64,000 nucleotides of DNA from Bryobacterales bacterium (GTDB taxonomy: Bacteria; Acidobacteriota; Terriglobia; Bryobacterales; Bryobacteraceae), in assembly GCA_026129915.1 (NCBI GenBank), contig JAHCHD010000005.1:1-64000 (forward strand). The letters are read 5' to 3'. Numbering within the stretch: the stretch's first letter is position 1; every line of letters starts with the position of its first letter. A model generated the notes under the pieces. It searched no databases, was not told the DNA's origin, and worked only from the letters and a program-made list of their open reading frames with translations. Below, piece after piece: positions 6,186 through 22,636 of this stretch. Position numbers and translations under genes: made by a program.

Positions 6186-8120
6186 CTAAGCACTGAGCTT
6201 GGCGATTACGTCCTCAATCAGCCGCGGGACGTATGCGCGCAGGCGCTGTTCCAAGCCTTCCTTTTCGCGAGGCAGAGCACGCAAGCGGGCCAGCCCGGGC
6301 TTGGCTCGCTGGTCCATCTGGTCGATGGCGTTCACCGCCGCAAGAGCCACGTACAGGCTGTTCAAGGAAAGATCAGCCTGTTGCAGCAGCACATCCAGCG
6401 CAGCATTCGCATCGGTGTCATTGCCATGACGTCCGAGGGCTTCGGCAGCAGCGATACGGACGCTGGGAGCAGAATCCTGTAGCGCCTTGCGAAGAGCGGG
6501 GGCATTGGCATTCACGGCATCCTTGCCACGCATCAGCAGCCCAAGGATGGTCCAGTAACGAACGGCGCTATCGGCATCTACAAGCCCTTCGAGATCCATG
6601 GGTGGCTGGGCGCCGGCGCCGTAGCCCTGCGAGGCGGCTTCGGCCACAGCCAGCACGCGTTCCATGGGGTACTTGCCCTCCTGGCGCGCCATGTCATAGG
6701 GGGTAGTCCCCTCCGAGCGGGAGTGGATTTCGGCCTCCGGCAGCAGACCCACATCACGGATGCGGATCATCCAGTCGTGGGTTGCCTGTCGCATCTCTTC
6801 GAGTTTGGCCTGCTGCTCTGGCGTACGCTGTTGGGCGGGAAGCACCGCAAGGTTCTTCACCTCATCCGGGTCAGACTGCAGGTCGTAGAGCTCCTCAAAC
6901 GGCTTGGTCTCCCAGAAGTAGGTTTGTGGCGGCTGCAACTTGCCCTCGTCGTAGAGGCGCTTCCAGACCTGCGTGGTGGGAGTCTCAAACATGTAGGCGA
7001 TGTGCTGGCCGTAGATGCGGTGGGGCATGAACTGCCGCAGGTATTGATAGCGGCTGTCGCGGCAAGCGCGAACGCAATCGTAGCGTTCGTCCATCCGACC
7101 GCGGAAGCCAAACTGGTACTTCGGGGCTTGCGTAACCGCAGCGCCCGCAAAGGCATCGCCCTGCATCCAGGCAGGAGGTTTGGCTCCCGCAAGGCTCAAC
7201 AATGTGGGGGCGAGATCCACAAATCCTACGGGACGGTCTGACGTGCCTCCCGCCTGGTAATCGGCCGGCGCAAGGTGTTTGAATTTGTCGGGCACATGCA
7301 GGAGCATCGCAACTTGCAGACCGGAATTGTAAGGCCATCGCTTGCTGCGCGGCATGCCGGAGCCGTGATCGCCATAGAAGAAGACGATCGTATCGTCCAC
7401 CAGCCCGTCCGCTTCGAGTTCCGCTAGCACCTTGGCAGCCTGAGCGTCCATGGTGGTGATGTTGTCGTAATACTGTGCCCAGTCGCGCCGCACCTCAGGG
7501 GTGTCCGGGTGGTAAGCAGGGATGGGCGCCTTGGCGGGATCGTGAACTGCCTCATGCGGACGGCGGCGAATTTGGCTTTCGTGCGTGGTGGTGAAGTTGA
7601 AGATGGCAAAGAAGGGCTGGCCGTCGGCTCGATTGCGCCAGTGGGCTGCCTTGCTGGACTCACTCCACACTTCGACGGGTTCGAGGAGGTTGTAGTCCTT
7701 CTTCTGATTGTTGGCGACGTAGTAGCCCTGCTCACGGAGCAGCTCCGGATACATCTTCATGCTGGCAGGTAGCGGCAGGACGCTCCGCATGTGTTCGGCG
7801 CCCAAGCTCGGCGGGAACACACCGCTGATGATGGTGGTTCGCGCCGGGGCGCAGACCGGGGCGTTGGAACTGGCGTTCAGATAGCGCAAGCTGCGTGATG
7901 CCAGATTGTCGATGTTGGGAGTATCCGCGTAGGAATCGCCATAGCAGCCAAGTTCCGGTCCAATATCTTCACAGGTAATCCAAAGGATATTGGGCTTCGA
8001 TGCCGGCTGCGCGCAAGAGATGGCACCAGCCATCGCTGCGGCACCAAAGGCGGTACTCACAAAATGACGCCGAGAAAAAGTAGGACCTGAAACGCAGGGG
8101 CGCTGGGTATTGGTTTGCAT
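6186..8120 (-). CDS. Tat-exported sulfatase with HEAT-like C-terminal region
   Basis: This enzyme should hydrolyse sulfate esters or N-sulfate groups outside the cytoplasm. The N-terminus carries a twin-arginine signal (SRRHFVSTAFGAAAM, about 16-30). The sulfatase core starts at PNILWITCEDIGPELGCYGD, with metal-binding Glu/Asp. The sulfatase signature is CAPAR (C90-R94), whose Cys would be converted to formylglycine, so an activating enzyme is needed elsewhere. FFYGDHGSGMPR holds the second metal site. The overall pattern (CED, NAPVCAPAR) resembles heparan N-sulfatase-like members. After about residue 500 an alpha-helical region with repeated Ala/Leu helices (YWTILGLLMRG, VRIAAAEALGRHG) looks like HEAT repeats, which would bind a partner or substrate. 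The gene stands alone, and the substrate is not deducible. Confidence 0.92.
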   Translation of the reverse strand: MQTNTQRPCVSGPTFSRRHFVSTAFGAAAMAGAISCAQPASKPNILWITCEDIGPELGCYGDSYADTPNIDNLASRSLRYLNASSNAPVCAPARTTIISGVFPPSLGAEHMRSVLPLPASMKMYPELLREQGYYVANNQKKDYNLLEPVEVWSESSKAAHWRNRADGQPFFAIFNFTTTHESQIRRRPHEAVHDPAKAPIPAYHPDTPEVRRDWAQYYDNITTMDAQAAKVLAELEADGLVDDTIVFFYGDHGSGMPRSKRWPYNSGLQVAMLLHVPDKFKHLAPADYQAGGTSDRPVGFVDLAPTLLSLAGAKPPAWMQGDAFAGAAVTQAPKYQFGFRGRMDERYDCVRACRDSRYQYLRQFMPHRIYGQHIAYMFETPTTQVWKRLYDEGKLQPPQTYFWETKPFEELYDLQSDPDEVKNLAVLPAQQRTPEQQAKLEEMRQATHDWMIRIRDVGLLPEAEIHSRSEGTTPYDMARQEGKYPMERVLAVAEAASQGYGAGAQPPMDLEGLVDADSAVRYWTILGLLMRGKDAVNANAPALRKALQDSAPSVRIAAAEALGRHGNDTDANAALDVLLQQADLSLNSLYVALAAVNAIDQMDQRAKPGLARLRALPREKEGLEQRLRAYVPRLIEDVIAKLSA

Positions 8121-8282
8121 GGCTAAGACTCCCCCAATAGTCTATGCCATGTAGCGGGCCACTCGACACGCAAGGTAGCTCGCGAGTGCTGGCGGAGCGA
8201 TGATGCGCGGGAGCCGGAGATGGAACACAGTGCTCCAACGCCGACTCTTGACGGATTCTCAACGGCGCTTACCGCGCGAGCG

Positions 8283-12202
<3,920 letters not shown>

Positions 12203-12206
<4 letters not shown>

Positions 12207-14212
12207 ACCGGTTCCTCCGCGGAGCTTCGCCAATAGCGGTTGGCCACCACACTCTCAGCCAGCAAAATGCCGGCCAAAATCAAAAACCCATACCAGCCGA
12301 AGGGCACTCGCCTTTCGTTCTCAGTGCTCGCACCCGCAGCGCTGGTTGCCGCCGGAGCATCTTCGCCACTAGCCTTCCAAACCGACCGCTGCGTCTCATC
12401 CATCACCGCCAGGTTCGACTCGCGCGGGCTCACATTCGCCGCCACCAGATCTTCCCTGCCCCCGGCGCGCTCAAGCCTGTAGAAGCCAGCTTCCGACAGC
12501 AGCACCCCATCGGAGGAGAGGCTTTCCGCGCGGCTCACGGCGCGGTTTCCATCTGGACCCGTGACCTCAAAACCAGCGGCCACCGCGCTCACGCCTGGGA
12601 TGCGGACTTCATAGAAATCATCCACGCGGCGGCTGAGTTCGCGCGCCGTGAGTCCGCTGAGATAGCGCGAAAGCCGCTCCACCAATGGAATGAATACAGG
12701 CTGAAACGGAATATCGTTCGACGCCGAATCGAGTGTACTCGTCATCAGCAGCACCCGTCCGTCCTCCAGCCGTTTCTCAGCGAGAATGGGCGTGTTGTCA
12801 CCCAGCCTAGCCAGAATGGTAAGGCCGTCCTCTTCCAGATTCCATGCGCTTAGGAATCGAATGCCCCGCAGGCCATCGAGACCCTGCAACACGGGGTGCC
12901 CGGGGTCCATCTGATCAATGCGGAGGTCGCCCCGCTCGGTCCCCTGGCTTGCCGTTCGGAGCGTGGTCTCCGCTACGGCCACCGGCATCCCGGGAGTTGC
13001 CGTTCGCGGTAGCAATACCAACAGCGCCCCGCCGGAGCGTACGAACCGTAGCAGGTCAACACCCGTCTGCTGCAGTACTCCAGGCGATGCCTCAATCACC
13101 ACAAAGGCGAAGCTTCGGACATTCTGCTCGGTGAGTTGCGCCGGAGCCAGTTGCTGGAAGCGGAACAGCGTGTTCGGGATCGCCGCCAGCGCCGTTTCCA
13201 TATAGCGCGAGGACAGATTCACTGAAGCTCCGCTCACGAAGGCCACGGTCTGAAGGTCTGTCTTTTCAATCGCGAAGTAGTAGCGGTTATCGCCTGGCAG
13301 CGCGTCCTCCTGCTCGATGCGCAACTCCGCGCGCGTCCAGCGTGGTCCTGGTTCCAGATTCGTGAACTCCGCCTGTGCACGGCCACCAGCGGCCACTTCC
13401 ACATTTGCCGACGCTACCTTGCGGTCACCAAAGTAGACGGCCAGAGGCAGCGTCTTTGCGGACTGAGCATAACTCGAAACCGAGGCGCGCACGTCCACCT
13501 TGCCCGTGGGCGCCACACGGGCTGGAGCCACCACGGAATCGATGCCCCAATTGTCCGCGGGCCCCCCCACGACGTGTTCAGTGAGCTTTGTACCCGGCGG
13601 CAGTTTCGATTCCTCAAAGGTTGCGGGCATCGCCGCAGCCTGGAAATCCGAAACTACATGCAAATCGAGCGGCTTCTTCTCATTCGCGTGAATGCTGGTG
13701 GCCGCCTGCGCCAGTTCCGCCAGAGACCCCGCCGAAGCGCCGGGTTTCCAAGCGCGTACCGCATCCCGCAGGACATCGCTCTTGGTGGTTACTTCCGTAA
13801 GCAGCGCCGCCCCGCGCGCATAGCTAAGCACCTGCATGGGCTTGCCACTGTTGCCATTCACCACGCGCAGCGCGGCTTCACGGGCGGCATCGGACACGCC
13901 GTCGCGCGCCATACTCAGCGAACTATCCAGGGCGAGAACGGTAAGCCTGTCCGCCTGCACCGACGCCGCCGGCTGCCGGTAAAACGGCTGGGCAAAGATG
14001 AACGCCAGCAGCAGCACAAGCAGGGTGCGCAGGCTAAACAAGAGGATATACCGGAGTTGCCGCTGCCGCGTCTTCGTTTCCTCGGTCTTCTCGAGGAACA
14101 TGAGGGTGCTGAACAGGGTGGTTTCCTGCTGCTGCTTGCGTAACAGATGCAGGTAAATCGGTAAGCCGACGGCAAGGAGACCGGCAAGCAAGGCAGGTGC
14201 AAGGAAGCCCAT
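12203..14212 (-). CDS. BatA-like membrane protein with vWA domain
   Basis: A 669-residue inner-membrane protein. The N-terminus (MGFLAPALLAGLLAVGLPIYLHLL) and the following RQRQLRYILLFSLRTLLVLL are typical of the BatA/aerotolerance N-terminal domain: two membrane helices around a short basic loop. A von Willebrand A domain follows, with the metal-binding DxSxS motif in LALDSSLSM (about residues 94-102). A later Rossmann-like stretch (FAFVVIEASPGVLQQTGVDLL, SGGALLVLLP) resembles the GATase-like fold of related proteins. A last membrane helix lies near the C-terminus (GWYGFLILAGILLAESVV). It starts directly after the DUF58 stop and overlaps the DUF4175-like gene by 4 bp, so it is translationally coupled. 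It is probably part of a MoxR-dependent metal-ion-regulated assembly in the envelope. Confidence 0.88.
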
Positions 14213-15109
14213 CTACAGCCTCCCCTGCCGAATCGTGAGATACTCCCGCAACCCTGCGTCGAGTGGCTTGTCGGTAGGCATCAACATGTAGTCAAGGCCT
14301 GAGCGCCGGCATTCCGCCGCAATCGAATCGAGGTGCGTCTGCATGCGCCGCATGTAAGGTCCGCGCAGGTACTCAGGCGACACCTCCAGTTTGCGCTCGG
14401 TTTCCATATCCACGAACAACTGGATGTCCTTGAAGTTTGGGCTGATCTCCCTCGGGTCGAGGATATGGAAAAGCACCACGTCGTTGCCGCGGTAACGAAT
14501 TGGCTCCACCATCTTTACGAGCGCCGCGGGGTCAACATAGAAGTCACTGAGGATGGCCACGATTCCCCGTCGCCGCGTAAACTGCCTAAAGTGCAGCAGG
14601 GGGGCCTCGAAATCAGTTTGCGTGCCTTCCACCGCCCGGTCCATCGCATGAAGCATGTTGGGCAACTGGCCAAAGCGCGAACTGGCTGGGATGTACTCAC
14701 GGATGCCTTCGTCGAAAAGCAGCAAACCGAAGGCGTCCCGCTGCTGATTAGCGAGGTATGCCAACGACGCTCCCAGGAACCGCGCATAATCGAGTTTGCT
14801 GAGGTTCGTGGTGGAGTAACGCATGGAAGCGCTGGTATCCATGAGAATCGACAACAGGGTATTCGTCTCGCCGTGATAGCGCTTCAGATAGGTGCGCTCC
14901 GTCCGCGCGAACACGTTCCAGTCGATGTGCCTTGGATCGTCACCGGGAGTGTACGGGCGATACTCCGCGAACTCCTGGCTGAAGCCGAAGTCGGGCGAAC
15001 GGTGCAAGCCCGAAACGAAACCATCCACCACCGTGCGCGCAACAAGGTCCAGGGTCGAGATGCCGGCCAGCACCTGAGGGTCAAGGAATCGCTGTGGCTG
15101 TGGCTTCAC
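14213..15109 (-). CDS. DUF58 domain protein (vWA-like partner of MoxR)
   Basis: A 298-residue cytoplasmic protein. It contains the DUF58 hallmark region YRPYTPGDDPRHIDWNVFAR (about 49-68), followed by a vWA-like beta strand with SILMDTSASM (a DxSxS metal site). It has no membrane segment, unlike longer DUF58 proteins. DUF58 proteins almost always pair with a MoxR ATPase, here 26 bp upstream, which is thought to remodel or load them. The stop abuts the ATG of the BatA-like gene, so the three are one translational unit. Confidence 0.93.
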   Translation of the reverse strand: MKPQPQRFLDPQVLAGISTLDLVARTVVDGFVSGLHRSPDFGFSQEFAEYRPYTPGDDPRHIDWNVFARTERTYLKRYHGETNTLLSILMDTSASMRYSTTNLSKLDYARFLGASLAYLANQQRDAFGLLLFDEGIREYIPASSRFGQLPNMLHAMDRAVEGTQTDFEAPLLHFRQFTRRRGIVAILSDFYVDPAALVKMVEPIRYRGNDVVLFHILDPREISPNFKDIQLFVDMETERKLEVSPEYLRGPYMRRMQTHLDSIAAECRRSGLDYMLMPTDKPLDAGLREYLTIRQGRL

Positions 15110-15135: not shown

Positions 15136-16164
15136 TCAATCGTTCTTAGGTACCGGGATCGATTCGATCATCTTGCCGAGGATGAAGTCGGAATCCAACC
15201 TGTCGCTCTCGGCATGGAAATTCAAAAGGACGCGATGGCGCAGAACTGGAATCGCCAGAGTACGCACATCCTCATAGGTAACGTGATAGCGGCCGTGAAT
15301 GAGTGCTCTGGTTTTCGCCGCCAGCACCAGGAACTGCGCGCCGCGCACGGATGCGCCGAAGTTTACGTACTTCTTTACGATGTCCCCCGCAAACTCGTCA
15401 GTGGGCCGTGTTCCGCGCACGACTGCCAAGGCGTAGCGGGCCACCGATTCCGCAATCGGCACCATCCGCACGAGCTTCTGGAAACCCAAAATCTCTTCGG
15501 CGTTCGTCACCGGCTTCACAGGGTCGGAATAGTTGGTCGTGGTTAGCCCAAGCACCTGCAGTTCCTGGTTCGCGGAAAGGTAATCGAGCTTGGTGTTGAA
15601 CAGGAAACGGTCAAGCTGCGCTTCGGGCAGGGGGTAGGTGCCTTCGAGTTCGATAGGGTTCTGTGTGGCCAGCACGAAGAAGGGCGCGGGAAGCATGTAG
15701 ATGTTGCCACGAACGGTACAACTGCGTTCCTGCATTGCTTCGAGTAGCGCCGACTGCGTCTTGGGCGGAGTCCGGTTGATTTCGTCCGCAAGCACCACGT
15801 TGCCGAAGATGGGGCCTTGTACGAATGTCCAGGTGCGGCGTCCAGTGACGGGATCTTCCGCAATGATGTCAGTACCCGTAATGTCGGAGGGCATCAGGTC
15901 TGGCGTGAACTGAATGCGCCTAAACTCCAGGCCCAGCGTGCTGGCGATGGTCCGCACGAGCAGTGTCTTTGCCGTACCCGGAAGACCGGTAATCAAGCAG
16001 TGGCCGCCCACAAACAGTGCAATCAGCACCTGTTCCAGCACATCGTTTTGGCCCACAATCACCCGGCGCACTTCGTGCACAATGTCACCGTGTGCAGCGC
16101 GAAAACGCTCCACGTGCTGTTGCACTTCCGCCGAGTCCATCGTTTCAATCATCAAGTCCGCCAT
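15136..16164 (-). CDS. MoxR family AAA+ ATPase
   Basis: A 342-residue AAA+ ATPase that probably acts as a chaperone for the vWA and DUF58 proteins of the cluster. Walker A is GLPGTAKT (60-67), Walker B is VVLADEIN (123-130), and sensor 1 lies in LATQNPIE. The helix-2 insert and C-terminal lid are of the expected size. I chose the ATG at 16164 (MADLMIETM) because GAGAGAGG lies just ahead; an in-frame start at 16200 would add 12 residues. It is separated from the upstream TPR-peptidase gene by 95 bp, the widest gap in the lower half of the cluster, so an internal promoter there is possible. Confidence 0.95.
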   Translation of the reverse strand: MADLMIETMDSAEVQQHVERFRAAHGDIVHEVRRVIVGQNDVLEQVLIALFVGGHCLITGLPGTAKTLLVRTIASTLGLEFRRIQFTPDLMPSDITGTDIIAEDPVTGRRTWTFVQGPIFGNVVLADEINRTPPKTQSALLEAMQERSCTVRGNIYMLPAPFFVLATQNPIELEGTYPLPEAQLDRFLFNTKLDYLSANQELQVLGLTTTNYSDPVKPVTNAEEILGFQKLVRMVPIAESVARYALAVVRGTRPTDEFAGDIVKKYVNFGASVRGAQFLVLAAKTRALIHGRYHVTYEDVRTLAIPVLRHRVLLNFHAESDRLDSDFILGKMIESIPVPKND

Positions 16165-16259
16165 TGCCTCTCTCGTTTCCGCCGCAGGGCCAACGCCCAA
16201 CAGCCCTTCACTGCACCGCCATCTACCACGTCGAGGGTGCCCGAGCCACGCCGCCTGGC

Positions 16260-18446
16260 CTAGTTAGCCAGTTCCAGCAGCAATTGCTGCGCCTCCTTAT
16301 ATCCCGGCGCCAGTTCCAGCGCCAGATATACCTGGTCCAATGCCTTGTCATTCTGATTACTGACTTTGTAGGCTCGGGCGAGCCGGAAATGCGCCCCTGC
16401 AAGATCGACGGGCTTCATGGCCACCAGGGCACGATACTCGGTGATTGCCCCCTGCTTGTTTCCAAGTTTCGCATAGAGGTCGCCCAGTTGCGCATGCAGT
16501 TCCGCGTCCAGCGGATAGATGTAGTTCAAGCGTTCCAGCGCATCCGCCGCTTCTTTGAGCTGATTCCGTGCAGCCAGCAATCCGCCTAGTTTCTTGATGG
16601 TCTCCGGTTGACGTCCGCCTTTGCGCACATAGCGCCAGAGTTCTTCGCTGGCCTTTTCTGGCTGCCCTTTTGCAACGTAGGCTTCGGCCAGCATCTCGTA
16701 CACGCTGTTCTTGCCAACGAATTCCGGATACTGGTCGCGCAATTTTGGCCCTTCCTCCAGCACGGCGTCCCAATTCTTCGCTGCGTACTGCTTTGCGAGC
16801 GCGGGCATTGCCTTCTGCCATTCCGGGAAGGCGCGCGCCATTTCGCCCACCTGGCCATCGAGCCAGGCCAGAAACTGCTCGTCGAAGTCCTTCGGTATCA
16901 GGCCCAGCCGCGCCTGCACCACCTCCGCCGTGGTTTTCATCTGCTTGAAGTCCTCCACCATCTGGAGGATCTTCTCCCAGCCCCACTTCTCGACGATGTA
17001 GTCGATAATGCGTCCTGCCTGGAAGTAGCTCACCACGACCTGGGTAGGCGTGTCGGGCTGCTGGAAGCCCTGGTCAAGATTCGCTACCGGCAGCAGAGTT
17101 TTCTCACGGATGGCCTTCAGGATTGGCGGGTCAAGGCGGTCGCCCCATTCCTTAGAGACCTGGGTCTCTTCGTGTACGGAGATCCCCTCAGTGAACCAGC
17201 GTGGCACTTTGTGGTCAGTAAGCTTCAGCACGTAGACGTGGCTGAGTTCGTGCCAAAGGGTGCTGGCCCAATGGAAGTCGCCAGGAGCCCTCGCGGAGGG
17301 GCTGTCCATGGCTACGGTGTCGCCGAAGGCCACGCCGAGTGCGCCGAGGCCCGGAAGCCCCATCGTGCGCACGGCGAAGTCCTCATGGTCAGGATAGAAC
17401 TCCACTTGGATAGGTTCCGTCATCTCCAAACGGTACTTCTTGTTGAATGTGGTGATGGCCCGGGCAAGCTCCCGCTGCGCGTAAATCACCAGCGGCTCCC
17501 ACTCCTTGTTGTGTAGCCGCAATATCTGGTTCCTGCCGCGAATCAGCCGGAAGTTCTTGTAGCTATCAAGAAGCCGCAGCGTATTTACAGTAGTGGCATC
17601 GCGAAAGTCCGCGTTGAATGAAGTCTCAAGCTGGCGCCTGGCCTCTTCGTCGCGACCCAAGCGCATCAGATTGATGCCCATTTCACTACGTGCGCGGTAG
17701 TTCGTGCCATCAAGAGCGACGGCCTTTTCATACAGCTTGATGGCCTCGCGATAGCGGCGCTGCAGCACAAAAATGCGGGCGGGAATGGCGTAGAAATCGC
17801 TATAGCGCGGATTAATCGCCAACGCCTGCTGCTCGTAGGGCGTGGAAGGTTTATCTTCCAGCCAGTCCGCCGCTGCCAGAACGGCCATGGCATCCAAGGC
17901 CTCACCGGGCTTTAACTCCATCGCCTTGAGACCATGAAGCCGGGCTTCGGAAGGCCGGCTTCGCTCCAGCGCGAGGCGAGCCAGCAATTCATGAGCTTCC
18001 AGCAGATCCGGATTGGCCTCCACTGCCTTCACCGCCAGTTCTTCCGCCTTGCTGCTGAAGCCCTCCGCCGTCAGGGTTGCCATCGCCAGCAATGCGCCCG
18101 CATGCTTTTCGTCGGCCTTCAGAGCTTCGCCGAAGAGCTTCTGCGCCTCGCCCTTGTTGAACCGTTCCATGAACAGGCGGCCGTAGCGCACGCGAATGTC
18201 GTTGTTCGCGGGGGCCGCACGCAATGCCTGTTCAAACAGGTTCTTCGCGGCCTCGTAGTTCCCGGCGGCCCACGCCGCCTCGGCGCGATACCAACCATTG
18301 GAAGACCGCGCCAGTTCCGCGAAGCAAGCCTCCGCCTTCGCCGACTGTCCAATTTTCCGCGCTGTGGCGCACTCCCCCGGAGTGGCGGCCACGGCCAGTG
18401 CGGCTGCGAAGAACATAGCGAAGATGGCGGCAACGGCTCTCATCAC
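16260..18446 (-). CDS. TPR protein with gluzincin (peptidase MA-like) domain, exported
   Basis: A 728-residue protein with a signal peptide (MMRAVAAIFAMFFAAALAVAAT). N-terminal TPR helices span about 30-280 (for example YEAAKNLFEQALRAAPANND). The zinc peptidase centre is HELSH (H399-H403) with the third ligand Glu in WFTEG (E420), a gluzincin spacing of 17 residues as in the peptidase MA family. A second TPR block fills the C-terminus (about 560-728). The likely place is the periplasm. It stands inside the MoxR/vWA cluster, 20 bp after the C13-like peptidase gene, giving the cluster two predicted peptidases. All zinc ligands are present, so it looks active; the substrate is unknown. Confidence 0.88.
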   Translation of the reverse strand: MMRAVAAIFAMFFAAALAVAATPGECATARKIGQSAKAEACFAELARSSNGWYRAEAAWAAGNYEAAKNLFEQALRAAPANNDIRVRYGRLFMERFNKGEAQKLFGEALKADEKHAGALLAMATLTAEGFSSKAEELAVKAVEANPDLLEAHELLARLALERSRPSEARLHGLKAMELKPGEALDAMAVLAAADWLEDKPSTPYEQQALAINPRYSDFYAIPARIFVLQRRYREAIKLYEKAVALDGTNYRARSEMGINLMRLGRDEEARRQLETSFNADFRDATTVNTLRLLDSYKNFRLIRGRNQILRLHNKEWEPLVIYAQRELARAITTFNKKYRLEMTEPIQVEFYPDHEDFAVRTMGLPGLGALGVAFGDTVAMDSPSARAPGDFHWASTLWHELSHVYVLKLTDHKVPRWFTEGISVHEETQVSKEWGDRLDPPILKAIREKTLLPVANLDQGFQQPDTPTQVVVSYFQAGRIIDYIVEKWGWEKILQMVEDFKQMKTTAEVVQARLGLIPKDFDEQFLAWLDGQVGEMARAFPEWQKAMPALAKQYAAKNWDAVLEEGPKLRDQYPEFVGKNSVYEMLAEAYVAKGQPEKASEELWRYVRKGGRQPETIKKLGGLLAARNQLKEAADALERLNYIYPLDAELHAQLGDLYAKLGNKQGAITEYRALVAMKPVDLAGAHFRLARAYKVSNQNDKALDQVYLALELAPGYKEAQQLLLELAN

Positions 18447-18466: not shown

Positions 18467-19402
18467 CTACTTGTCGATATCCGCCTGCGTGCGCGCCAGC
18501 GTCAACAGCAGCGCGTTCATTCGCTGCCGATAATCGGCCGGAGAAATCGATTCCTTTTCGTACTTCAGCCGGTCGATCTGTTGTTCGAGAATGTCCTTAC
18601 GCCGCAGCAGATCAGCCTTTCCAGGGTCCGCCGCCGCGGTCGCCGCATCACCCAGACGCATCACCGGAAACGCAGCCGCCAGCAAGCCTTGGCCGTTGTC
18701 GCGGCCAGGATCACGCACGCCGCCACCTTGGCCAATGTCGTTCAATACCGACTGCTCTGTCGCGATCCGTTTCTCTTGCTCGAAGTACTCCACGGTGCGC
18801 CGCTGTGCATATTGGAAGGCTTCAAGCGCGGAAACCGTTTCGTTCTTGTCGGTATCAGAGGCGGGGTCAGAGAATGCGTCGGCGAAGTAGCGTCCAAACA
18901 CGGTGGCATTCTTCTGCGTTCCCGTACGAGTGGCGGCCATTACCACACGCTTCGGCTTCACGAGGGCAGTAAGGGAGCCTCCGCTACAACTGGTGGTGTT
19001 CACAATCAGTTGGCGCTCCGCACGGATCCGGTCCAACAGCACAGCGAGTTGCGTGGAACTGATGTCCGGACCCTTCAGGTTGAACTTATAGTCCACGGAA
19101 TCGTAGCTGCCGTGACCAATTAAAATCAGCGTGAAGGTATCTTCGGGCGTCACGGTACGGGCGGCTTCGTCAATGGCGGCATCCAGTTCCTTGCGCGTCG
19201 CGCCGGACTTCGCGCCAATAGTCTTCACGAGCGCGTTGCCGGGATTCTTAGCCAGGCCTCGCTCAATTTGCTGCGCCCAGCCTTCGAAGCGCACGCGATA
19301 GTCCTCTTCGCCCGGCACGCCCACTACCGTCAGCACCATCGGACGCGCGCCCGCAACGGCACTCAGCAGCAAACCCAGCACTACGCTCCAGCAAAGTCTC
19401 AT
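18467..19402 (-). CDS. Clan CD cysteine peptidase (C13/caspase-like), exported
   Basis: A 311-residue protein with a signal peptide (MRLCWSVVLGLLLSAVAGA). The catalytic dyad of clan CD is visible: LILIGHGSYD gives His97, followed about 42 residues later by NTTSCSGGSL, giving Cys139. Both sit at the end of hydrophobic strands, as in legumain/GPI8 (C13) and caspases. After this, SDTDKNETVSALEAF (about 182-196) fits a calcium-binding EF-hand-like loop (D183, D185, N187, E194). The C-terminal 80 residues form a charged coiled-coil. The start at 19402 is chosen over a GTG at 19426 that overlaps the upstream gene and would spoil the signal peptide. It lies 13 bp after the vWA gene. Family assignment rests on motif order, not on a search. 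Confidence 0.82.
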   Translation of the reverse strand: MRLCWSVVLGLLLSAVAGARPMVLTVVGVPGEEDYRVRFEGWAQQIERGLAKNPGNALVKTIGAKSGATRKELDAAIDEAARTVTPEDTFTLILIGHGSYDSVDYKFNLKGPDISSTQLAVLLDRIRAERQLIVNTTSCSGGSLTALVKPKRVVMAATRTGTQKNATVFGRYFADAFSDPASDTDKNETVSALEAFQYAQRRTVEYFEQEKRIATEQSVLNDIGQGGGVRDPGRDNGQGLLAAAFPVMRLGDAATAAADPGKADLLRRKDILEQQIDRLKYEKESISPADYRQRMNALLLTLARTQADIDK

Positions 19403-19415
19403 ATCCAGCACACTC

Positions 19416-21716
19416 TCATAGGGCACCCCAGCGTCGCCGCAGCAGCCATTCCGCTGACTTCAGCGCCAGCAATAGAAGAAAGAACACGGGCATCGGCCAT
19501 AAGTCGCGCGTTTCACGAATCGTGAGGCCCGCTTCGGAGTAAGTCATATCAGAGGCGATCTTCGACGCATCGTCCGCTGTGTAGTAGTTCCCACCCGTGC
19601 GCTGCGACAGAGCCTGCAACAGGGGACGGTTCTGCACGCGTCCAAACGCTTCGGCCACGCCATCTTCCCTGCGGAAGGTGATGGAATCGCGGCCCACTTC
19701 CTCGCTGCCCCGCATCGCAACGATCTCGGTGATGTAGGTGCCAGGCGAGGTCACCGACGTTTGCAGACGATACTCACCGGACTGCCCGCTGACGGGTTCC
19801 AGCCTCTGCTCAATGGTCGCTCCGTTGGGTTGCGATACGCGCGCGGTCACTGTGGCATCGTTCACGGCTATCCACTTCTTGTCGCGCACTCTGGTTGTCA
19901 AGGTGAGATCGCCACGGTCAAACAGAATCTGGTCGGATAGCTCAGACGACACCTGTCGCGGCGAGTCTGTCACCAGCCATCGCAGCAACTGCCGCCAGAA
20001 GATCTCGTGAGTCTCGTCGCGGTGGTCCAAGAGCATTTGCCACTTCCAACTGCCTCCAGTGGCGAAGACGGCGGTGCGGCCGTATCCGAACCGTTGCGTC
20101 GCCAGCAGCGGAGTCCGCCTGTTCGCCTGTCCGGTTTCAAGCAGTACCGTTGCTCCCGGCCGCGGATCGCCTACCCGTTGTGAATCCGCCAGTTCCGGCA
20201 GTTGGTCCCACTGCTTCCGGTTTTCAGCCGAGTCGTCGTTCAAGCGCGTGATGAGACTCTCTTCGCCGCGCGCCGTGAGGAAAGCCTTCGCCGGGTTGCG
20301 AGTGAACGAATTGCTTCCCGCCGGCAGGCTCACCGGCAGCAGGGGCTCCAGTGGCGACAGCGCGTATGCGCCATCACCCAACCCGTCGCGCCCGCCAAGC
20401 ATCAGGAGTCCGCCGCCACGTTCATCCACAAAGCGCTTGATCAATTCCAGTTGCGCCGGCGTGAACCAGTTTGACTCTACCGTGCCTATCACGATACCGC
20501 TGAAGCCGAACAAATCTTCGGCACGAAGCGGAAAGCCGTCTTCGAGTTCCTTCCCGTCCCGCACGCCTTGCCGGTAGATCTTGTTCTGGGTGGTACGCAA
20601 CATGCTCACTAACTCGATGGTCTGCTCTTCCTCCATGGCCCGGCGGATGAACTTCATCTCCCATCGCGGCTCGCCTTCCACGTAAAGGATGCGAGGCTTG
20701 TCGGGATCGACGTTAATCAGCTGTCGCCGCAGATTGTTACTGAGGTTCTGCTCACCCTCCACGGCTTCTATGCTTGCTTCCAGCACCTTCGCGCCGGCAT
20801 CACCCACGGGAAAGGTAATCTCTTCAATGCGAGGCCGCGCGTCGTCCGGCAATAGCAACTCGCGGTTGGCCACCACGTTGCCATCCAGTTTCAGGGTCAG
20901 CCGGGCTGCTTTGCCGCCGAAGCCACCCTGACGAATTCGCACCTGCGCCGACAGCTTGGCGCTGGCGAAAGTGCGCGGGGCCACGCGGAGGTCTTCCACT
21001 TCCACGTCGCGTTCCATTGCCGTACGGCCGAGCCCCAGCGTATGCACCGGCACTCGTCGCGCTCGGACTTCCGAAAGCAGTTCCGCGCTGATCGCTTGCC
21101 GGTTATCCGCGCCATCGCTCACCAGAAGCACGCCACCGAGAGGGAGATTCGCTGTATCCCTCGATAACTGCGCCAGGCTCTCGCCCAGTTGCGAAGCCGC
21201 GCCCGCTCCGCTGATCTCATTTATGCCCGCCACCGGGTTCGCACGGCTGCCCACGGCGTACACTTTCACCGCAAAACGATCAGTGAGTTCGGGGAGAATC
21301 TGCTCCGATAGAAGGCGTTTCGCCAGAGCGAGGCGCGTTTCTCCGTTCTCGCTCTCCAGCATGCTGCCGGAATCATCCACCAGCACCGCAATCATGTTCT
21401 GTTGCGAACGCAAGGCCGATATTTCCAGCCCTGGGCGCCACAGAAGGAACAGCACGAGTGCGGCAAAGGAGGCCTGCAAGGCCCAAACCACGATGCCCTT
21501 GGGCGTCAGCCGAAGACGGAGACGATCTGCGAACGAAAAATTGCGCTGTTCCCGCGGCAGTGCCTCGATGGCTTCGGGCCAAAACAGCCTCCACGCCAGC
21601 ACGCCAGCGGCCAACACAATCAAGGTCACCAGCAGCCACGCCGGCCACCCGCTCAGGAACGTAAAGGTTCCCTTGTCAAAGACGATGCGTGGATATTGAA
21701 ACAGCCACTCAAACAT
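19416..21716 (-). CDS. Membrane-anchored vWA protein with GATase-like domain
   Basis: A 766-residue inner-membrane protein. It has membrane helices at about 24-46 and 74-93. A vWA domain with a complete metal site follows in VLVDDSGSM (D114, S116, S118). A Rossmann/GATase1-like region (FSGIVIGTVESNWF, GGGLLMLGGRDGLGDGAY) lies around 430-480, Ig-like strands follow, and a C-terminal helix (LWPMPVFFLLLLALKSAEWLL) closes the protein. It is similar in plan to the BatA-like gene further down, and together with the DUF58 vWA-like fold gives the cluster three DxSxS domains. It is followed within 13 bp by the C13-like peptidase gene. The stretch of 119 bp before its start separates it from the DUF4159 gene. 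Confidence 0.88.
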   Translation of the reverse strand: MFEWLFQYPRIVFDKGTFTFLSGWPAWLLVTLIVLAAGVLAWRLFWPEAIEALPREQRNFSFADRLRLRLTPKGIVVWALQASFAALVLFLLWRPGLEISALRSQQNMIAVLVDDSGSMLESENGETRLALAKRLLSEQILPELTDRFAVKVYAVGSRANPVAGINEISGAGAASQLGESLAQLSRDTANLPLGGVLLVSDGADNRQAISAELLSEVRARRVPVHTLGLGRTAMERDVEVEDLRVAPRTFASAKLSAQVRIRQGGFGGKAARLTLKLDGNVVANRELLLPDDARPRIEEITFPVGDAGAKVLEASIEAVEGEQNLSNNLRRQLINVDPDKPRILYVEGEPRWEMKFIRRAMEEEQTIELVSMLRTTQNKIYRQGVRDGKELEDGFPLRAEDLFGFSGIVIGTVESNWFTPAQLELIKRFVDERGGGLLMLGGRDGLGDGAYALSPLEPLLPVSLPAGSNSFTRNPAKAFLTARGEESLITRLNDDSAENRKQWDQLPELADSQRVGDPRPGATVLLETGQANRRTPLLATQRFGYGRTAVFATGGSWKWQMLLDHRDETHEIFWRQLLRWLVTDSPRQVSSELSDQILFDRGDLTLTTRVRDKKWIAVNDATVTARVSQPNGATIEQRLEPVSGQSGEYRLQTSVTSPGTYITEIVAMRGSEEVGRDSITFRREDGVAEAFGRVQNRPLLQALSQRTGGNYYTADDASKIASDMTYSEAGLTIRETRDLWPMPVFFLLLLALKSAEWLLRRRWGAL

Positions 21717-21835: not shown

Positions 21836-22636
21836 TCAGTGAGTCATCGCGTAGACGATGTAGTTCAGCGTCAACCGGTATGCTTGCGATGTCCACTTCT
21901 CCGGATACTGCGGCTCATCAGCGTGCTCCCACGCATCGCCCAGATCGGAGTTGTGACAAATAGCCACCATGATCCGCCCCTTATCGTCATAGACGCCTCG
22001 CCAGCGCGCATCGTAACCGTCGTACTCCCATTCCCTGCCGGTATAAAGATATTGGATGCCCGGCAGCTGGAAACGATCGGTAATCTCGTAGACCGAACGG
22101 TTGATGGGATCGTCCGCAGGAACATCCACGATGGGCCGGTCAGGAAACACCTTGCTCATGCCCGCCGCGAATACCTCCCATTCATAGCTGCCGTGGAAAT
22201 CGTCCACCATCAGAAAACCGCCCCGCAGCAGGTATTCGCGCAGGCGGTTGGCTTGCTCCTGCGTCAGGTCCCAGTGCCCCACTTCTACCGCGTACACCCA
22301 GGGATAGTTAAAAATGCGGTCATCATCGAGAGATACCACTTCCTCTTTTGACCTCGCGTGGATGCGGCTGAGACGCTTTAGACCGATCACAAACTGGCGG
22401 TCGGCCTTCGGGTAATCCGTGGTCCAACTGCCTCGCCGACCCCAATAACCGCCGACGTTCAGCTGCGGATACTCAAGACGCGCGAACACAAACTCCGTCT
22501 TCTCGTCCGGGTTTTCCGGAATAGGCGCATCGTCCTCTGGATTCGGGAATCGCATGCGCCGTTGAAAGCCCAGCGCGGCGACACCGACCATCAAAAAGAG
22601 TACGATCACAATCAGGATTCGCTTGGAATATCGCAT
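21836..22636 (-). CDS. DUF4159 domain protein
   Basis: A 266-residue protein, first gene of the minus-strand cluster. A single N-terminal hydrophobic segment (ILIVIVLFLMVGVAALGF) anchors or exports it. The rest is the DUF4159 fold: FVFARLEYPQLNVGGYWG near 48-65, then NYPWVYAVEVGHWDLT, and LREYLLRGGFLMVDDFHG, which resembles a glutamine-amidotransferase-like Rossmann strand. DUF4159 proteins regularly occur beside MoxR, DUF58 and vWA genes, as here. No catalytic role is established for the family. The promoter for the whole cluster is expected in the divergent region above 22637. Confidence 0.9.
   Translation of the reverse strand: MRYSKRILIVIVLFLMVGVAALGFQRRMRFPNPEDDAPIPENPDEKTEFVFARLEYPQLNVGGYWGRRGSWTTDYPKADRQFVIGLKRLSRIHARSKEEVVSLDDDRIFNYPWVYAVEVGHWDLTQEQANRLREYLLRGGFLMVDDFHGSYEWEVFAAGMSKVFPDRPIVDVPADDPINRSVYEITDRFQLPGIQYLYTGREWEYDGYDARWRGVYDDKGRIMVAICHNSDLGDAWEHADEPQYPEKWTSQAYRLTLNYIVYAMTH

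Follow-up and report, generated by a model that had tools for sequence, protein, structure and literature searches.

The window analysed here is a stretch of 64,000 nt from the genome of a Bryobacterales bacterium (contig JAHCHD010000005.1). It carries, on the minus strand, a cluster of genes in the order DUF4159, VWA/GATase1-like, caspase-fold gene, TPR + Peptidase_MA, MoxR, DUF58, BatA and DUF4175-like, located as follows:

21836..22636, minus strand: DUF4159 protein, with which the cluster begins
19416..21716, minus strand: membrane VWA + GATase1-like protein (766 aa), directly upstream of the caspase-fold gene
18467..19402, minus strand: ORF of a putative exported pseudo-peptidase with a caspase/legumain fold, 311 aa (from sequence, homologues and fold)
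16260..18446, minus strand: TPR + Peptidase_MA protein with an HExxH...E motif, downstream neighbour
15136..16179, minus strand: MoxR AAA+ ATPase (coordinates according to the start codon used)
14213..15109, minus strand: DUF58 protein
12203..14212, minus strand: BatA-like VWA membrane protein
8283..12233, minus strand: DUF4175-like protein, with which the cluster ends

The caspase-fold ORF runs from an ATG at 19402 to a stop at 18467. A mechanical ORF list offers an alternative GTG start at 19426, which results in an overlap with the upstream gene; the ATG matches the start of the orthologue L001. The dN/dS ratio is 0.064 relative to L001 (85% identity) and 0.20 relative to L080. The former value indicates purifying selection, and thus the ORF is a real gene. 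The first-pass annotation of this DNA had placed the ORF correctly, had quoted LIGHGSYD, TTSCSGGS and SDTDKNETVSALEAF as they occur in the translation, and had numbered H97, C139, D183, D185, N187 and E194 rightly. The protein begins with MRLCWSVVLGLLLSAVAGA followed by RP, and the export signal that had been proposed for it is recognizable by eye as a Sec-type signal peptide. Residues 1-20 have low confidence in the structure model (pLDDT 61-71). The homologues recovered in a pattern scan (see below) share a similar hydrophobic N-terminus with AxA at its end, and the protein is presumably secreted.

The immediate surroundings of the caspase-fold gene are well conserved. Among 90 further loci, 87 have the VWA/GATase-like gene immediately upstream and 86 the TPR-metallopeptidase gene immediately downstream. 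Wider loci across the phylum Acidobacteriota retain the gene set in slightly altered arrangements, and a second DUF4159 gene is often present. In some families the TPR protein is absent and the caspase-fold gene still lies beside the VWA/GATase-like gene, so the VWA/GATase-like protein is the likelier partner. The metallopeptidase motif of the TPR protein (HExxH...E; HELSH...W..EG in the window) was found by motif search to be intact in 28/28 complete orthologues, and the protein is probably an active exported metallopeptidase. The VWA protein retains a MIDAS-like DxSxS. In the part of the elbow region covered by a motif search, the GATase-like domains have no cysteine, and the VWA/GATase1-like protein is possibly a second pseudo-enzyme of the operon.

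Two further observations concern the flanking genes. Many other Acidobacteriota (L178-L190) have a DUF4159 gene between the TPR-metallopeptidase gene and moxR, an arrangement not seen in the Bryobacterales loci. The last gene of the operon encodes 1316 aa with a weak resemblance to DUF4175 and, towards the C-terminus, low-complexity segments of collagen-like character.

The first scan for homologues was pattern-based and yielded 16 relatives. DTDKNETV was among its seeds; as a result, this set is unfit for judging conservation of the loop described below. HMM searches of whole genomes took its place and provided 137 distinct homologue sequences. The family is nearly universal in its order (matches in 232/250 genomes) and was matched in 125/396 genomes of the phylum Acidobacteriota, where it is a core gene of the MoxR/Bat-type operon. 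Outside the Acidobacteriota sampling was via a plasmid collection only, so the distribution beyond this phylum is probably underestimated.

Fold and active-site residues

Alignment A2 (117 rows) was the input both for an AlphaFold2 model and for tests of family members against Pfam. The model (pLDDT 94.2, pTM 0.90) has the alpha/beta/alpha fold of caspases and legumain. Its best match among solved structures is legumain (Z 20.3, 2.6 Å over 197 residues), with further matches to Arabidopsis metacaspase-4 (Z 18.9), caspases (Z about 17) and the GPI transamidase subunit. When the family profile was searched against PDB sequences, it picked up metacaspase-4 at E 7e-5 and, at E 0.002, GSU0716 from a bacterium.

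A relationship to the C13 and C14 peptidases surfaced only with the family profile, not with a single sequence. The Pfam Peptidase_C13 model weakly matches 51/117 members (E up to 1, best E 1e-9) and the Peptidase_C14 model matches 14/117, whereas the window protein alone has no match in Pfam or NCBIfam and does not reach the curated cut-off of PF01650. A comparison with these two HMM families had been suggested in the first-pass annotation. Given the structure matches and the independent profile matches, the predicted clan CD fold, nearest to C13, can be considered secure, and to that extent the earlier assignment is confirmed. The analysis defines a pseudo-peptidase family for which neither Pfam nor NCBIfam has a dedicated model. 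The features of the protein relevant to what follows are:

19346..19402, minus strand: predicted Sec signal peptide, residues 1-19, ending in LLLSAVAGA before RP, no lipobox (read by eye)
19112..19114, minus strand: codon of His97, at the clan CD catalytic-His position, invariant in 137/137 (homologue alignment)
18989..18991, minus strand: codon of Ser138, which aligns with the C13/C14 catalytic Cys (homologue and profile alignments)
18986..18988, minus strand: codon of Cys139, the x of C-x-S-G (homologue alignment, tree)
18821..18856, minus strand: EF-hand-like loop spanning D183-E194 (DTDKNETVSALE), invariant at positions 1 and 12 and with an oxygen ligand in every homologue at 3 and 5 (homologue alignment, model)
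18473..18625, minus strand: C-terminal hairpin of two helices (260-281 and 288-310) that is not part of the clan CD core (model)

In clan CD the catalytic His follows the third strand (GHG motif), and in C13 and C14 peptidases the catalytic Cys follows the fourth (C-x-[SG]-G). The His is present, as H97, in all 137 homologues. The Cys is absent at the aligned position, residue 138, in every one of them: the residues there are Ser (124), Ala (4), Asn (3), Thr (2), Pro (2) and Gly (2). Several alignments place the catalytic Cys of known peptidases on S138, including hhalign against acidobacterial C13/C14 proteins (Prob 99.8, E 1.2e-27), comparison of the family profile with metacaspase-4 and with GSU0716, and by-eye alignment to the acidobacterial C13-like proteins L149 (EPCFSGGLIWDLRGPNR) and L150 (QQCYGGGFVEKLAGPNR).

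The first-pass annotation had proposed a His97/Cys139 dyad and had made it depend on conservation of both residues in homologues. His97 is conserved as it expected, but position 139, one residue past the nucleophile position, is Cys in only 17/137 sequences (otherwise Ala 71, Ser 44, Gly 3, Val 1 and Thr 1). An active H97/C139 cysteine peptidase gated by Ca2+ could be argued for on the grounds that C139 is the sole Cys of the mature window protein, lies within the active-site loop and recurs at this position in those 17 homologues. Against this, position 139 aligns with the x of C-x-S-G rather than with its Cys, is Ala or Ser in 115/137, and has changed at least 28 times on the tree, at least nine of these changes being between Cys and another residue. 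The occurrence of A, S, C and G is better read as a requirement for a small residue, and we regard an active H97/C139 enzyme as highly improbable. The possibility that C139 serves as nucleophile in a subclade that has kept it was rejected, given that Cys at 139 is scattered over the tree. Mature domains of 86/137 homologues have no cysteine at all. On these alignments, cysteine peptidase activity appears excluded for the family as a whole and very unlikely for the window protein. Without a nucleophile there is no enzyme for calcium to gate, and the idea of a calcium-gated caspase-like enzyme falls with it. A search of the window's genome for an active C13 gene elsewhere, as an alternative true peptidase, found none over the cut-off.

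A second alternative is that Ser138 acts as nucleophile together with His97, making the protein a Ser/His clan CD peptidase or esterase. The predominance of Ser at 138, the retention of S140 in 134/137 and the invariance of H97 are all compatible with a serine hydrolase. However, 13 homologues have Ala, Asn, Thr, Pro or Gly in place of S138, which takes at least nine changes on the tree, and the Ser is lost even in orthologues whose genomes are placed in the same genus as the window (L080 and L081, with Ala-Ala at 138-139), in which the operon neighbours are kept. Moreover, Trypanosoma brucei MCA4, which also is without the catalytic Cys, has been described as a pseudopeptidase (PMC10896300). 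A Ser/His enzyme therefore seems to us distinctly unlikely, and proteolytic activity is presumably absent from the family.

The EF-hand-type loop

The loop that the first-pass annotation had noted at D183-E194 withstands the broader sampling. D183 and E194 (EF positions 1 and 12) are invariant in 137/137 and are two of the eight invariant columns in alignment A2. Residue 185 (position 3) is D in 122 and N in 15 homologues, and residue 187 (position 5) is N in 106, D in 22 and S in nine. Position 8 is V, I, L or T, and position 9 (residue 191) is S or T. The window loop has the ligand pattern D-x-[DN]-x-[DNS]-x-x-[ILV]-[ST]-x-x-E. A loose EF-loop pattern matches at one and the same place in 137/137 homologues, with a second match in two proteins only; as composition predicts 0.027 matches per protein, this vastly exceeds random expectation. 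In the model, the loop is left by a strand (189-191) and then a helix (192-209) in an EF-hand-like manner, and it is entered from helix 169-175 and a short helical turn near 180-182.

The strict EF consensus is satisfied by 33/137 homologues. Gly at position 6 is present in 38/137, which results in canonical loops such as DADKNGRVSMLE and DLDKDGRVSIGE. It is absent from the window protein, which has Glu there (the earlier annotation had correctly remarked that this position is not the usual Gly), and from most of its close relatives, the Bryobacterales branch having mostly Glu or Asp. This could mean that the loop is a helix-capping relic of an EF-hand that has lost Ca2+ binding in the Bryobacterales branch. 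A relic would be expected to drift, however, and positions 1, 3, 5 and 12 are still oxygen donors in 137/137, so we judge this explanation unlikely. Predicted Ca2+ binding by the loop is well supported by this pattern of conservation. A search for solved structures of EF-loop-bearing relatives with bound metal gave no useful match.

Acidobacterial C13/C14 proteins that have the catalytic Cys carry an EF-type loop at the same place (e.g., DSNGDGRTTMEE in L150, DASGDGRVTLNE in L160 and DSDNDGVVRAGE in L176), as does L159, a C14 protein of the window's genome (DENTDSIVTADE). Its shared location in these Cys-bearing relatives indicates that the loop was inherited within part of bacterial clan CD, and in the present branch it has evidently outlived the active site. 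A few archaeal orthocaspases, too, are reported to contain an EF-hand motif (PMC6426788). Persistence of the loop beyond the active site would mean that catalysis and (predicted) calcium binding are separable among the bacterial relatives of caspases. In terms of fold topology, the loop comes after a helix heading away from the catalytic end and so should lie far from the active site; it is expected to be structural rather than gating.

Proposed role and known relatives

The interpretation that we favor, and consider reasonably probable, is that the protein is an exported pseudo-peptidase that functions as a Ca2+-stabilized binding or adaptor subunit of a MoxR-assembled envelope complex, docking an operon partner rather than cutting it. 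The clan CD core has kept its His, and its nucleophile Cys has given way to Ser or, less often, to Ala, Asn, Thr, Pro or Gly. One structural Ca2+ would be held, outside the cytoplasm, by the EF-type loop that leads into helix 192-209. The C-terminal helical hairpin and the inactive cleft at H97 and S138/S140 would together dock another product of the operon. Gene adjacency points to the VWA/GATase-like membrane protein, whose gene is the immediate upstream neighbour, as the most likely one. Docking would occur within the MoxR-assembled envelope complex, which in most genomes would include the intact TPR-metallopeptidase. Against this reading, Ser138 in 124/137 sequences leaves room for a Ser/His enzyme in most members, and position 6 of the window loop is Glu instead of Gly.

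A related but rather improbable scenario makes the protein a cell-envelope calcium sensor, in which Ca2+ would set the conformation of the dead fold and so switch the MoxR/Bat-type complex or the TPR-metallopeptidase. If true, a pseudo-caspase would be regulating a different protease.

The closest known relatives differ from the window family in informative ways. Legumain and other Peptidase C13 proteins (PF01650, including the acidobacterial L149 and L150) provide the best fold match and share the position of the catalytic His, an ungapped active-site alignment and, in the acidobacterial members, the EF-type loop at the same place. Unlike them, the window protein has no Cys nucleophile, falls below the Pfam cut-off and has an extra C-terminal helical hairpin. 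Bacterial C14 orthocaspases (L160, L163, L176 and L159) belong to the same clan CD fold family and also have an EF-type loop downstream of the nucleophile, but they keep the Cys (DACHSG, DSCHSG), are encoded elsewhere in the genome and are mostly larger ORFs. L159 (G000:C325:15544-16254) is separate from the cluster and has an intact TDSCHSG motif.

Caspase folds that persist after loss of the dyad have been described before. Pseudo-orthocaspases occur in Alphaproteobacteria and Cyanobacteria, in which Cys to Ser is the common change and the His is usually lost as well, to Tyr (PMC6426788); T. brucei metacaspase 4, without the catalytic Cys, is localized to the plasma membrane (PMC10896300). 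The pseudo-orthocaspases are C14 proteins, whereas the window family has lost the nucleophile but retains an invariant His and is nearer to C13 (51/117 members matched, vs. 14/117 for C14). It also differs in its predicted export, its calcium-type loop, its location in a MoxR/Bat operon and its occurrence in another phylum.

The operon resembles known Bat/MoxR operons in having MoxR, BatA-type VWA and TPR proteins. A periplasmic complex has been proposed for Bat proteins, and a bat deletion in Leptospira biflexa had no growth, morphology or oxidative-stress phenotype; the portion of that report drawn on here mentions no caspase-fold member (PMC3557215), whereas in the window-type operon this is a core gene. 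Bat/MoxR systems thereby gain a concrete and testable component that is presumably extracytoplasmic. Inactive caspase domains are also found in vWA-MoxR ternary conflict systems (PMC7159879). The cluster was considered as a possible case and rejected, as none of the other components of such a system was seen among its genes.

The same operon is present on a chromid of Gemmatirosa kalamazoonensis (Gemmatimonadota), where the homologue combines a Ser/Ala active site with DLDKDGGVSLLE as its loop. The N-terminal part of this homologue (L198, 8860-9738) matches in a different frame (ORF 7223-9139), which suggests a frameshift or a sequencing error.
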